Positions 20,926 through 25,348 of a DNA stretch of 64,000 bases are shown here, one piece after another. The position numbers were made by a program, and so were the translations under genes. Numbering within the stretch: position 1 is the first letter of the stretch; each line of letters opens with the position of its first letter. Below the pieces are notes generated by a model. The model searched no databases and was not told where the DNA came from. It was given only the letters and a program-made list of their open reading frames with translations. Origin of the DNA: Saprospiraceae bacterium (GTDB taxonomy: Bacteria; Bacteroidota; Bacteroidia; Chitinophagales; Saprospiraceae); contig SKLY01000012.1 in NCBI GenBank assembly GCA_007121335.1, positions 1-64,000 on the forward strand, written 5' to 3'.

Positions 20926-22455
20926 CTACACCTTGTTTCGAATACCGATAAAATCCAGGATTTCATCCAGGTGTTTTCTCTCGTTGGAGAGTCTGGGCAC
21001 TTTGTTTTGGCCACCCATTTTACCCTTGGACTCCATCCACTTGTGAAAAGAGCCGGAGGGGGCTATATCCAACTTAAGCCTTTTTAGGGCCAAATCGTGT
21101 GAGCGCTTGGCATCGTAGTCAGAATTTAGTTCCCGCAATTTGAGATCCAGAAAATTGGCAAATTCATTGGGATTGGGGTCTTTGCCGGCGAATTCTACTA
21201 CCCATTGGTGAGCCCCCTTCTTCCCTTTTTCCAGGAAAATTGGCGCCACGGTGTAATCCACCAGTTCGAGACCAAATTTTTTGCAACTCAGGGCAATCGC
21301 CTTGTCGGTATTTCCTATCATCACTTCTTCCCCAAAAGCATTGATAAATTGTTTGGTGCGACCCGCTACGGTAATGCGGTAGGGATCGGTGGAAAGAAAG
21401 GTGATTACATCTCCGGGCATATATCTCCATAGTCCACCATTGGAACTGATGATAATGCTGTAATTCTCTCCGGGTTTTACCCCTTCCAGCGGGACCGTGT
21501 TTTCAAGGTCCGGTTGATCGGCTTTCATGGGGGCAAACTCGTAGTAGATTCCATTGTCAACCAGTAAGTACATTCCTTTTTCGGAAAAATCTCCCTGGGC
21601 CGCAAAAAATCCCTCCGAGGCGTTGTAAACCTCCTGAAAGATAAAATCGCCTGAAGGGAAAAACTCCCTGAATTGTTGTAAGTATGGATCAAACCCCACA
21701 CCACCGTGGGCGTATGCTTTTGCATTGGGCCAGACTTCCTCCATGTTTGATTTACCCGTCAATTCAAGAATCCGGTCGAAGAGGACTATGGTCCAGGTGG
21801 GTACACCTCCGAAAAAACTTACATCTTCATCCTTGGCAATATGCGCTATTCGCTCAATTTTTTCCTCCCAATCTTCCAGCAGGGCTGTGGGGATGTCGGG
21901 CGTGAAAACAATCCTGGCCAAAAAGGGCATGTGGTATAACATGACAGCGGAAATATCTCCAATACGAGTTTGTCTCGAATGAGGGTACTTTTCTAAATTC
22001 CCGCCCATTATTAGATTCTTCCGCTTAAAAATATCGATGCTCGGATTGTGGTGATATAAAAAACTGAGTACATCAGTAGAACCCTTGTTGTGGCACCTTT
22101 TGAGGTTTTCCTTTGGGACCGGGATATACTTGCTTCTTCCACCCGTAGTGCCTGAGGACTTAGAAAACCAATTGACTACTCCCCTCCAGAGCACATCCGG
22201 TTTGCCCTTCATCATGTCTTCAATATGAGGTCGCAGGTTTTCGTATTCATTGACCGGCATTCGAGAGGAAAAATCACATGGTGATTTGAGCGTCTTAAAG
22301 TGGTATTTTTTGCCAAAAACAGTGGACCGGGCCGAATCGGTAATGTACTTAAACCAGTACTGTTGACGCTCATGCGGGTTTTGCAGCGCATACTCCAATT
22401 TCCGGTAGTTGCGGTCGAGAATTTTCTTAACACCAAAATTGAGCAGTCCCCTCAT
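20926..22455 (-). CDS. GH3-family acyl-acid amido synthetase-like protein
   Basis: The 509-residue protein matches the GH3 branch of the adenylate-forming superfamily, best known from plant auxin- and jasmonate-conjugating enzymes but common in Bacteroidota. Visible motifs are the nucleotide loop SKSSGTTGGRSKYIPV, the second ATP motif EVYNASEGFFA, and GDVITF near residue 350, followed by the C-terminal lid (about 385-509). It should activate a carboxylic acid as an acyl-adenylate and pass it to an amine. The bacterial substrate is unknown. A minus-strand -7-like box TACCTTTA (22487-22480) lies about 25 bp before the ATG. Confidence 0.9.
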   Translation of the reverse strand: MRGLLNFGVKKILDRNYRKLEYALQNPHERQQYWFKYITDSARSTVFGKKYHFKTLKSPCDFSSRMPVNEYENLRPHIEDMMKGKPDVLWRGVVNWFSKSSGTTGGRSKYIPVPKENLKRCHNKGSTDVLSFLYHHNPSIDIFKRKNLIMGGNLEKYPHSRQTRIGDISAVMLYHMPFLARIVFTPDIPTALLEDWEEKIERIAHIAKDEDVSFFGGVPTWTIVLFDRILELTGKSNMEEVWPNAKAYAHGGVGFDPYLQQFREFFPSGDFIFQEVYNASEGFFAAQGDFSEKGMYLLVDNGIYYEFAPMKADQPDLENTVPLEGVKPGENYSIIISSNGGLWRYMPGDVITFLSTDPYRITVAGRTKQFINAFGEEVMIGNTDKAIALSCKKFGLELVDYTVAPIFLEKGKKGAHQWVVEFAGKDPNPNEFANFLDLKLRELNSDYDAKRSHDLALKRLKLDIAPSGSFHKWMESKGKMGGQNKVPRLSNERKHLDEILDFIGIRNKV

Positions 22456-22700: not shown

Positions 22701-24233
22701 TTATTCGTAGTAGGTCTTCTCGTAATTCCGTTCCAGCATTTCCATTACCATTTCCCACATATCTTCGTAGGGTATAATCTCAACTTCTGAAGACCTGCTG
22801 GAGAGTTCTGCCTGGCGGGACTTTAGTTTCCACAGATCCTTGCTTGTATATGATTTGACCCGCTTTGGGTGGAAACCGTATTTCCCCACCTTCACCATCA
22901 TTCGAATGATGCAATTGGATCGAAAGGTGTTGTTTTCTTTAAGGTATCGCTGCCTGTACTGAGTCAATGCATCCATTCGATCGATGTATCTACCATAGTT
23001 ATGACGCGCAAGGAAAAAGAGCAACTGGACCAAAAGAATGGTCACGTTACGACCGGTTTTATCCTTCTGATAGAGGGGTACCTGGTTGAGAAATTTGTTT
23101 AGCCTGAAGTTGTTTTTTCTGTCTTTTACACCTTCAGGGTCCCGCAATGCAGATAAAAACTCCAGATAGGCTTCCAGGGTTCTCCATATTTCAAACAATC
23201 CGGATTTTAGGTCATCGATTTCCCTGTCATTGAAAGTAGATTCTTTTATCTTTTGTGCGGCCACGTATTCTCGCTTGTGGATATAAAAAAGTGCCTTGAA
23301 ATATCGGATTACAAACCAATTGTGTTGATTCACCTTGGTGAGCTCCTCTATGTCGTTAGCAATGCCTATTGCACTATCTAGCATTTTTGCATTGAAAAAG
23401 GCTATCATTTTCAATCTGTTGAGACTAAAAACAATGGGCTTATGAGTGTAATTCTTTTCTAAGAGATACCCAATAGATTGGCTGGTCATGGATATAATTT
23501 CTTCATTTCTGTTGTCCAAAAAATAGAATTCCGCATGCGCATTGCAATAGTAGTAGAGGAACTTCGAGGATGCTTCAGGGCCGTTATGAACATCCAATTT
23601 TTTACTTATTTCAACCCAGCGGCTTCGCAGTTCTGATTCTGAAATTTTGGAGCGCCCGTAGTCCTTGTGAAAGACGAGGTGGTAAGCGTCCATTGCATTA
23701 TTCTCAGCCTGCAACCTTTCAAAACTTACTTTTTGAATGTCATCATACTTACGGTACCTTGCTTTATTGATCTCCAGAGTACCAAAGTGGTATTTTAGAT
23801 CCGTGGTGAGTAAATAGGTCAGTTCAGTGAGTTCGTATTTTTGGGTGTATTCCAATAAGCCCTCCGCCAACCAAATTCCTGTTTTTCTGGCAGATTTAGC
23901 CAACAGAAGTTTGATCTGCGCGTATTGCTGATGGCTGTTGATGACGGCCTGGGGGTATTCGGCAAATTTTGGTTTGTTCAAATCGATGAAAAACAGTGTA
24001 TTGAGCAATCGATCCCGGAGTCTTTCCCGAAGTTTTGCAAAGGTGGCTTCAGAATTTGTTTTGTTTCCATAGAGGCTTTTCATAGCGTCCTCCTCGGATG
24101 AAAATTCTCCCTTATGCAACCCCCTGTAGAGTTTTTCGAGCTGTGTATCGTTATTTGAATTCCCGCCAACCAGTTCAATTTGGGCAATTTTTTCCGGCGG
24201 AAGCAGATCTATTAATTCTTTTAGCATTTTCAT
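22701..24233 (-). CDS. Large helical protein of unknown function
   Basis: The ATG at 24233 (MKMLKELIDLLPPEKIAQIE) gives about 510 residues. The frame can be extended to a GTG at 24284, but the MK-M-LKEL start looks natural. The protein has no signal peptide or membrane span. It consists almost entirely of helices rich in L, K, R, Y and F, with a pattern reminiscent of degenerate TPR or HEAT-type repeats (for example FYIHKREYVAAQKIKESTF). I do not recognise the family and see no catalytic motif. It is monocistronic, flanked by a 245-bp spacer and the small-RNA-like region upstream. A minus-strand CAATTTTG box (24302-24295) may be its -7 element. Confidence 0.75.
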   Translation of the reverse strand: MKMLKELIDLLPPEKIAQIELVGGNSNNDTQLEKLYRGLHKGEFSSEEDAMKSLYGNKTNSEATFAKLRERLRDRLLNTLFFIDLNKPKFAEYPQAVINSHQQYAQIKLLLAKSARKTGIWLAEGLLEYTQKYELTELTYLLTTDLKYHFGTLEINKARYRKYDDIQKVSFERLQAENNAMDAYHLVFHKDYGRSKISESELRSRWVEISKKLDVHNGPEASSKFLYYYCNAHAEFYFLDNRNEEIISMTSQSIGYLLEKNYTHKPIVFSLNRLKMIAFFNAKMLDSAIGIANDIEELTKVNQHNWFVIRYFKALFYIHKREYVAAQKIKESTFNDREIDDLKSGLFEIWRTLEAYLEFLSALRDPEGVKDRKNNFRLNKFLNQVPLYQKDKTGRNVTILLVQLLFFLARHNYGRYIDRMDALTQYRQRYLKENNTFRSNCIIRMMVKVGKYGFHPKRVKSYTSKDLWKLKSRQAELSSRSSEVEIIPYEDMWEMVMEMLERNYEKTYYE

Positions 24234-24326
24234 ATGGCATACATATTGCTCTGAAATACAATGGAATGGATTGTTTTGCGCCACTAAAATAGTGCAAAAT
24301 TGCCTGTCTTAAAAATTGAATATTCG

Positions 24327-24359
24327 TTTCATGCAAGAAAAACCCTTGCCTTACCTTTG
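24327..24359 (+). promoter_or_regulatory. Promoter-like element in gene-free region (first)
   Basis: A perfect -7 box TACCTTTG (24352-24359) is preceded at 21 bp by TTTC (24327-24330), one base from the -33 TTTG. Downstream lies a structured stretch without coding potential. It contains perfect short stems TAATTACTG/CAGTAATTA (24370-24378 with 24391-24399) and AGCAAAC/GTTTGCT (about 24410-24429), then TATCG/CGATA. It may drive a small RNA. Confidence 0.45.
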
Positions 24360-24477
24360 TAAAAGAAATTAATTACTGGTAAAAAGAATGCAGTAATTAG
24401 TTGAAGACCAGCAAACTAACGTGTTTGCTTAGGGTAAATTATCGGTGTATCGATAGTCCTGGTTTTTGAATAACTGT

Positions 24478-24510
24478 TTTGAAGCACTGATCAAACCGCT
24501 TTTACCTTTG
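24478..24510 (+). promoter_or_regulatory. Promoter-like element in gene-free region (second)
   Basis: TTTG (24478-24481), a 21-bp spacer and TACCTTTG (24503-24510) form a full consensus Bacteroidota primary promoter, the best one in the window. Only a 21-codon frame follows before the next hairpin. Confidence 0.6.
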
Positions 24511-24548
24511 TGGTATAATATTTATTAAATCACTAAAACTGTTTGATC

Positions 24549-24614
24549 ATGAATTTTCTTCAACTACTTCTGATGCTCCTTACTATTATCGGTGATGACA
24601 TTGATGGAATATAA
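24549..24614 (+). CDS. Possible 21-residue hydrophobic small protein
   Basis: An ATG at 24549, about 35 nt after the promoter at 24503-24510, opens a short frame reading MNFLQLLLMLLTIIGDDIDG plus I. Its N-terminal two thirds could form a short membrane helix and its end is acidic. This could be a real membrane microprotein or a leader peptide, or just chance, since any AT-rich sequence yields such frames. The transcript would continue to the hairpin at 24724-24753. Confidence 0.3.
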   Translation: MNFLQLLLMLLTIIGDDIDGI

Positions 24615-24723
24615 GGAACTAGAAAAAATCAGGTTGATGGTGTATCCATCACAAAAAAGATAAAGGCTATAAAAATTGCAAAGTTTCGCTTTGCATAGTT
24701 AGCTACGGAATGAGGTACAAAAA

Positions 24724-24753
24724 AAGGTGTGTATCACTTATGACACACACCTT
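24724..24753 (+). terminator. Hairpin, probable end of the small transcript
   Basis: A perfect 9-bp stem AAGGTGTGT/ACACACCTT (24724-24732 with 24745-24753) follows the possible microprotein frame. It lacks a T-run (AAAAACCCC follows), so it may be a stabilising 3' structure or a weak terminator. On the minus strand the stem is followed by TTTTT, so it could act in that direction too. Confidence 0.4.
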
Positions 24754-24902
24754 AAAAACCCCAAAATAACCAATTTCCGTTGTTAGCTGCAAATATAAGT
24801 GTGGATATGTATTATATCCAAATAATACAACTATAATTTATTGTATTTTTATTATAGTTATTTGTATTTAATTGATTATTAATAATTCACTATTACTTTG
24901 CT

Positions 24903-24958
24903 GGTATCACCAGAAAAAGAAATTGACCCGTAGCTAATGTGTTGCGGGTCTTTTTTTT
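24903..24958 (+). ncRNA. Possible very short RNA ending in a terminator
   Basis: A TTACTTTG (24893-24900, one mismatch to the -7 box) precedes the small palindrome CTGGTATCACCAG. A perfect terminator then follows: stem GACCCG/CGGGTC (24925-24930 with 24945-24950) plus eight T. The unit between box and T-run is only about 55 nt and has no reading frame. The terminator is well supported; the RNA itself is a hypothesis. Confidence 0.35.
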
Positions 24959-25165
24959 GCTACCGGGTCATTTTTTCCACTAAACCAAATCGCAAATCAG
25001 GTCCAATATTCTCTCTGGATCACCTTGTTATCCCTATTTTAATAACCTTCGAGAATGTTTACTCCTGCCAATAACTTAAACTTTTTCCGGCCTAAGTGAA
25101 AAATCTCTATGAAGCGACCATTCGGCCTGGACAGAAACTCGAATCGGGACAAGCTGAGGAAAAGG

Positions 25166-25207
25166 AATAAAAAAAAGCGCATACCCTGAAGGATATCCGC
25201 TTTTTTT
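25166..25207. terminator. Bidirectional terminator downstream of prmA
   Basis: An interrupted stem (AGCG at 25176-25179 with CGCT at 25198-25201, continued by ATA/TAT and a G:C closing pair) is flanked by an A-tract on the left and seven T on the right. It can therefore stop transcription from prmA on the minus strand and transcripts coming from the plus strand. Confidence 0.65.
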
Positions 25208-25348
25208 CTAACCAAACTTTTTAAATATGAGTATTCTGGTAACGCACTTGTGTTTATAATTATTTTAGTGCTGCATGAAAAACCTTGTCTCCTTCTTCTA
25301 CAACTACTCAGTGTTTCCGAACTCGGTCTGAATTCGCTCAATGCGTTA

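Follow-up and report, generated by a model that had tools for sequence, protein, structure and literature searches.

A conserved microprotein gene paired with a TPR-like gene in Saprospiraceae: a candidate peptide-receptor locus with a predicted antisense small RNA

Introduction

What is encoded by a kilobase of bacterial DNA that is crowded with promoter and terminator signals and holds no protein gene of usual size? This question is raised by positions 24285-25348 of a 64,000-nucleotide stretch (hereafter the window), the beginning of contig SKLY01000012.1 in the incomplete, 308-contig assembly of a Saprospiraceae bacterium (GCA_007121335.1; genome G000). The original prediction, made from the letters alone, proposed a small-RNA or microprotein locus. 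Both parts of this proposal hold: the locus carries a conserved microprotein gene and a conserved small RNA, the latter predicted on the minus strand (Table 1). This minus-strand RNA had been missed, as had the link of the peptide gene to the gene at 22701, which encodes a tetratricopeptide repeat (TPR)-like protein. We propose that this divergent gene pair has its common control region in the kilobase, and that the pair could consist of a propeptide and its receptor working like the Rap/NprR/Rgg signalling of Gram-positive bacteria, an explanation that, taken as a whole and by analogy, has in our estimate an even chance of being correct.

Table 1. Predicted features of the locus and the adjoining gene (positions in the window)
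Feature	Position	Strand	Remarks
TPR-like protein of ~510 aa, putative peptide receptor	22701..24233	-	ORF; TPR profile match
Promoter P1 module	24290..24361	+	GTC box 24306-24308, GTT box 24326-24328, -7 box TACCTTTG 24352-24359
P1-P2 interval, stable RNA folds	24362..24440	+	z -2.7 for 24366-24502
Promoter P2 module	24441..24512	+	GTC box 24456-24458, GTT box 24476-24478, -7 box TACCTTTG 24503-24510
21-codon microprotein gene, putative propeptide	24549..24614	+	MNFLQLLLMLLTIIGDDIDGI; conserved in five genomes of the genus
Small RNA, about 68 nt	24718..24785	-	start inferred from -7 box, end from T tract
Small-RNA terminator hairpin	24724..24753	-	13 pairs, then T tract
Invariant 29-nt small-RNA core	24752..24780	-	0 mismatches, 5 copies, 4 genomes
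Small-RNA promoter	24790..24821	-	TTG-N21-TATATTTG
Intrinsic terminator with T8	24925..24958	+	10 pairs, 6 G-C; hairpin 24925-24950

Transcription signals of the locus

Bacteroidota -7 boxes (TAHHTTTG) and strong terminators were counted mechanically on both strands, in intervals of 1064 nt, across the 64 kb. The locus kilobase holds 5 of these signals, the mean per 1064 nt being 0.58, and the claim of the highest signal density in the window is borne out. The twelve densest intervals listed (5-6 signals) all overlap the kilobase, and the only two strong terminators in the 64 kb both lie within it. The open reading frame listing agrees that no protein gene of usual size is present.

According to PMC6847099 and PMC9723704, the -7 box of Bacteroidota reads TAnnTTTG. 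The boxes of the two consensus promoters that had been claimed, here P1 and P2, both fit this pattern, and that of P2 is preceded by TTG 21 nt upstream. Neither box is listed in an E. coli sigma-70 scan, which is to be expected in Bacteroidota. The weak third promoter proposed at 24893-24900 (TTACTTTG) lacks the A of the -7 box and finds no support.

P1 and P2 share a layout that extends beyond the -7 box: GTC(C) is followed by GTT ~20 nt later and by TAnnTTTG ~27 nt beyond, in both promoters of 12 short-type loci from several genera, with poor fits at P2 of L163 (genome G127) and P1 of L111. From the 24 promoter sites collected, 18 entered a first matrix (P1 of L111 left out) and 17, all from other genomes, a second one (window, G002, two L163 sites and one L182 site left out). 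Neither the window nor its two closest relatives contributed to the latter matrix, which ranks 24503 first (score 25.1) and 24352 second (13.4) on both strands of the 64 kb, the third site reaching 11.5. The P1 module is 97% identical in G004 and 94% in G002. Within the genus and in L111, 150-152 bp separate the two promoters, and in L117 161 bp; the length of the interval is thus kept between genera, with its sequence diverged. The simplest reading of these sequence patterns is that one regulator acts on both promoters, and we infer that this regulator would be the TPR protein or its partner.

The structured stretch expected after the first promoter is also present, none of 200 shuffles folding as stably as the native sequence (Table 1). 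The 24906-24960 segment, which includes the T8 hairpin, folds at z -6.2, and G004 and G002 retain this terminator, with U-G replaced by U-A in the stem. It had been assigned to a short third transcription unit; the hairpin is indeed a good plus-strand terminator, but it more likely just marks the end of the upstream transcript, probably that of the peptide gene. Between the small-RNA promoter and the weak third promoter lies an AT-rich block (24823-24890) containing the inverted repeat AACTATAAT...ATTATAGTT; this block is 94-97% identical in G004 and G002, exceeding most of the surrounding sequence.

A conserved microprotein

The 21-codon hydrophobic frame that follows P2 is real and conserved at the protein level. 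It was found in 5 of the 8 genomes of the genus, invariably with 21 codons: the G004 peptide is identical, with one silent change in the gene, the G002 gene differs by four third-position changes and one first-position change, and the G003 and G006 variants are MEMLQLILMLLGIITEDFDGL and MDLITEILILLGLINEDLDGI, respectively. The codon-position pattern is that of a peptide kept constant while the DNA diverges within the genus. A peptide profile search recovered the five genomes at E values of 3e-11 to 5e-8 and gave no match below E 0.007 elsewhere in the 198 genomes searched. The three genomes of the genus without a peptide match have a completeness of 74, 74 and 85% and lack a match to the 22701 gene as well. 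Two weak profile matches outside the genus come from G127 and G061, and each lies upstream of a gene related to that at 22701 and points away from it. The window peptide is acidic and hydrophobic and contains no K or R; no classic export signal is seen in it.

These data also bear on the reading of the kilobase as a stack of small RNAs in which the reading frame is incidental. The stable folds and the invariant small-RNA core would fit such a locus, but the protein-level conservation across genera despite diverged DNA argues against it, and we consider this reading hardly credible.

The TPR-like protein encoded by the 22701 gene

The preferred start of the 22701 gene is the ATG at 24231-24233 rather than the GTG at 24284, given that the relatives begin at the same methionine. 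None of the Pfam, NCBIfam and PADLOC models matches the product, and no anti-phage defence model gave a match. Its relatives are common in the host's family, with 198 of 248 genomes positive and often several paralogs per genome, the paralog counts being lower bounds because at most five candidates were scored in each genome. Across the phylum, 21 of 296 sampled genomes were positive, 5 of the 21 coming from the host's family; no viral relative was confirmed. The protein consists of 510 aa in the window and of 464-526 aa across 41 loci. A GH3-family gene at 20926-22455, recognised by the Pfam models for the N, middle and C domains of GH3, adjoins it in the window, and the same neighbor is found in G003.

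A profile of 29 relatives, compared with PDB sequences, matched the TPRs of kinesin light chain (E 6.6e-4), and Pfam TPR models gave weak matches to 1-3 of the 29. The AlphaFold2 model, built from three sequences, is all helical and of mediocre quality (pLDDT 65, better at about 120-330). Foldseek with this model retrieved TPRs with a probability of up to 1.00 and a best E of 0.014, nothing appearing at E <= 1e-3. The three best VIA matches are Rap proteins (Z 13.3, rmsd 6.0, 293 residues aligned; 13.1, 4.0, 249; 12.9, 5.4, 285), at Z values that are common among helical repeats, and Rap, NprR and AimR account for 14 of the 50 structural matches listed, with chains of the PI4KA complex, LGN and Rpn6 falling within 1 Z of the Rap matches. 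The model of the N-terminal domain (pLDDT 62) had no match with E below 3 and shows no recognised fold, so that we do not claim a helix-turn-helix (HTH) domain for this protein. A SARP-like winged HTH at the N-terminus was considered as a guess and rejected: the models contain helices only, and no such match was obtained.

Pairing of peptide and receptor genes

The association between the two genes was analysed in 90 receptor loci, a non-random set in which 26 were delivered by the survey of 248 genomes of the family, 60 were hand-picked from its listing and 4 belong to the genus; one locus (L163 of G127) was already known to carry a peptide when chosen. A hydrophobic-acidic rule, fixed after the peptides had been inspected and applied identically to the controls, was used for 82 of these loci, leaving out the four of the genus and L114, L153, L162 and L178, where the gene starts are unsure. 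When combined with an exact promoter, the rule is satisfied divergently from the receptor gene at 18 of the 82 loci and on the same strand at 1 (shuffles: mean 0.07, maximum 1); when applied alone, the respective counts are 30 and 0 (shuffles: mean 0.52, maximum 3). A matrix of the nine C-terminal residues, from which the locus's own C-terminus was left out each time, identifies a divergent peptide at 47 of the 90 loci, located 95-450 nt from the receptor gene, vs 5 same-strand matches. One of the 47, L109, looks like chance, and at this threshold no divergent peptide is found at the other 43 loci. Measured from the TPR gene, the ATG of the peptide lies at a distance of 315, 316, 315 and 319 in four genomes of the genus, 316 in L111 and 321 in L117. 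Pairs also occur beyond the host's family (L195 and L198). Thus, at the sequence level, a conserved peptide gene is paired with a TPR-like gene.

Among the five same-strand matches, L160, L161 and L179 look like genuine co-directional peptide genes. Motif-bearing frames (e.g., ...VIIIDITGV) lie upstream of the receptor gene on the same strand in these three loci and in L181, suggesting that there may be a co-directional subgroup.

The receptor and peptide distances correlate (r 0.573, p 2e-4, 35 loci); the correlation is also seen with long peptides alone (r 0.51, p 2e-4) and is not significant with short ones alone (r 0.24, p 0.17). Linked genes also co-diverge in the absence of contact. In a tree of 56 receptors, the short-peptide class requires 3 changes vs 12.6 after shuffling, with labels that mark L123 as peptide-less though a peptide is present, as one is in L113, L119 and L125, and that may be wrong for further loci labeled as having no peptide.

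The 41 peptides consist of 17-61 aa and mostly end in [IV][IV]x[DE][D]xxx[hydrophobic], with Asp at position -5 in 32. The leaders vary, being short and hydrophobic, long and hydrophobic with a polar linker, or double-glycine-like, and the C-terminus stays constant. Double-glycine-like leaders precede a similar C-terminus in L119, L171, L155 and L114.

Two readings other than a propeptide with its receptor follow from these features. In the first, the microprotein always stays unexported: seated in the membrane or located in the cytosol, it would be a subunit whose acidic C-terminus serves to tether, inhibit or activate the TPR protein. The absence of K and R from 28 of the 41 peptides, which implies that there is no ordinary signal peptide, agrees with such a subunit, as do the hydrophobic N-terminal half, the fixed C-terminus and the TPR-like partner. 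Yet some paralogous peptides have a double-glycine-like leader or no hydrophobic part and have the same C-terminus, and a removable leader fits better where leaders differ and the paralogous C-terminus stays; we regard the unexported subunit as unlikely. In the second, the peptides are precursors of bacteriocin-like or modified peptides, and the TPR protein provides immunity to them or takes part in their processing. The double-glycine-like leaders of some paralogs point in this direction, together with a single match of L171 to the NCBIfam model leader_Chryseo ("bacteriocin-like protein"), which at 12.3 bits stays below the cutoff of 23.5. However, only about 5-10 residues follow the Gly-Gly in L127, L119, L171, L155 and L114, the C-terminus is not diverse but conserved, and no modification enzyme adjoins the window locus, the one at which the neighbors were surveyed, which makes this reading improbable.

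Two further elements were noticed at these loci. In many long-peptide loci (L102, L110, L113, L115, L116, L119, L126, L132 and L135), an inverted repeat of the pattern AGTTTTAAA...TTTAAAACT extends up to, or nearly up to, the start codon of the divergent peptide gene and would be either an operator or an mRNA hairpin. The element TTTTAGGTTTTAAGGGTGTTAAA, followed by a hairpin, is located 3' of the peptide stop codon in L130, L131 and L173 and is also found in L061/L163, and TTAAGGGTGTTAA-like copies recur in G127; these possibly represent another small RNA or a 3' UTR family.

The minus-strand small RNA

The stem noted after the second promoter is real, but together with its T tract it is better interpreted as terminating a small RNA on the minus strand than as a plus-strand structure. 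We consider this RNA a conserved predicted transcript. Its core recurs with zero mismatches in G000, G002, G004 and at two loci of G003, one in a syntenic position, with prmA on one side and the 22701 gene on the other, and one elsewhere, and is absent, with up to 3 mismatches allowed, from the other 96 of 100 genomes; the neighboring segments show 69-97% identity among the nearest relatives. Besides the copy in the window, the genus holds seven copies of the small RNA, among them those of a second core type, two in G006 and one in G001. Conservation of the stems in relatives had been set beforehand as the point on which the locus reading could fail. The stems are kept, compensatory changes preserve the terminator and affect 8 of the 19 predicted small-RNA pairs, and the locus reading is therefore not refuted by this comparison. 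Among 8 copies, TTG precedes TAnnTTTG by 21 nt in 5 and by 20 nt in one, and two have no TTG. The promoter spacer holds inverted repeats of differing sequence in the window (24797-24821), L004 and L022, as judged by eye, which would be either a hairpin of the opposing transcript or an operator.

At all five peptide-bearing loci of the genus, the small RNA lies antisense to the peptide transcript, on the 3' side of the latter. The combination suggests a type I toxin-antitoxin module, with the 21-aa hydrophobic peptide as a membrane toxin and the convergent RNA as its antisense antitoxin. Against this stand the retention of the peptide in other genera without the small RNA (a minus-strand promoter with terminator beside the peptide was found at none of 8 scanned loci of other genera), the occurrence of the RNA without the peptide (second copies of G003 and G006, and G001), and the fact that the peptide tracks the TPR gene rather than the small RNA; a toxin-antitoxin module thus appears decidedly improbable.

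Several other assignments of the RNA were considered and rejected. In Rfam, solely tRNAs reach the gathering score; GibS at 25168-25285 (23 bits vs 115, away from the small RNA), the Thr leader and the L20 leader are sub-threshold terminator matches. The core does not encode a peptide: the frame (NGNWLFWGF-stop in the window) has no start codon and is interrupted by an early stop in G006. A core match in Firestonebacteria (L016) is without small-RNA flanks and looks by eye like coding DNA; by our estimate, about 0.5 exact 20-base core matches are expected by chance in the collection containing it. Matches of the small-RNA model outside the genus are mostly gene terminators and, hence, were not accepted. 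Apart from the small RNA itself, four genomes contain 8 candidate trans-target sites that match the core with 1-2 mismatches; these are scattered and mostly inside open reading frames, and no start-site target common to the four genomes was found.

A propeptide-receptor hypothesis

Returning to the propeptide-receptor reading, we propose the following scheme. The twin promoters P1 and P2 would drive a plus-strand transcript for the 21-aa acidic hydrophobic microprotein, a putative propeptide whose C-terminal residues (about DDIDGI) would be the ligand of the TPR groove. After removal of the leader, the ligand might meet the TPR protein on returning from outside, following export, or without ever leaving the cell, and the ligand-bound protein, directly or via a partner, might feed back on the operator-like module of P1 and P2. 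In this genus only, the convergent minus-strand RNA would damp the peptide mRNA, given that it is antisense to the 3' part of that mRNA; alternatively, it could act in trans. Ligand binding, export, DNA binding, feedback and antisense control are all putative steps of this scheme.

On a larger scale, the pairs could constitute a large unrecognised system of peptide communication in Bacteroidota. In such a system, genomes of Saprospirales and some other families would contain paralogous pairs, each made up of a TPR receptor of ~510 aa and a small propeptide; hydrophobic and double-glycine leaders would be interchangeable, the acidic C-terminal ligand would be fixed, and there would be feedback on twin promoters and, in this genus, antisense tuning by a multi-copy small RNA. 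We advance this generalization tentatively and put its chances a little short of even.

Comparison with known systems

In the literature searched, signalling by peptides and TPR receptors is described for Gram-positive bacteria. Among the matches listed, none reported such a system in Bacteroidota, those for Saprospiraceae quorum sensing, peptide or tetratricopeptide did not mention Saprospiraceae, and no paper found in this literature treats RRNPPA together with Bacteroidota. The pairing may represent peptide signalling of a kind not known in Bacteroidota. Present in many genomes of a major environmental family, it is a candidate peptide code for the phylum, would explain a large unannotated gene family and would supply short defined peptides.

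Type I toxin-antitoxin systems are stated in PMC12390103 to be known only from Proteobacteria, Firmicutes, Tenericutes and, newly, Cyanobacteria. Like these systems, the five peptide-bearing loci of the genus combine a small hydrophobic peptide with an overlapping antisense RNA; unlike in these systems, peptide and RNA are not kept together beyond the genus, and the constant partner is the TPR-like protein. The small RNA resembles the FopS/GibS RNAs of Bacteroides, as described in PMC11697453, in its conserved single-stranded 5' stretch, intrinsic terminator, canonical promoter and presence in more than one copy in some genomes. It differs in being genus-restricted, in occurring in one or two copies per genome instead of 14, and in having no Rfam match at threshold.

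The nearest known systems are the RRNPP/RRNPPA of Bacillota (Rap-Phr, NprR-NprX, PlcR-PapR, Rgg-SHP and AimR-AimP). The criteria given in PMC10075063, from a survey of complete Firmicutes genomes and viruses, include a neighboring propeptide gene that codes for 10-100 aa and lies no more than 400 bp away. In the present case, the host belongs to Bacteroidota rather than Bacillota, the window peptide, like most of the others, lacks the basic N-terminal export region of these propeptides, and the receptor, of about 490-526 aa, has an N-terminal domain whose model shows no recognised fold. Because there is no basic export signal and neither an HTH nor a Rap-type helical bundle was recognised in that domain, we do not file the system as RRNPP. 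The divergent orientation is compatible with this group, given that Rgg-SHP pairs can be divergent, and the receptor, at 510 aa in the window, is at or just above the 250-500 aa range of RRNPP receptors. The similarities are that a small-propeptide gene adjoins a TPR-receptor gene (21 aa and 315 bp from the receptor start in the window), that the C-terminal peptide is fixed and the leader variable, that several paralogous pairs occur per genome, that a profile of the receptor's relatives matches tetratricopeptide repeats, and that Rap, NprR and AimR, tied within 1 Z with other TPR chains, are among its best structural matches.
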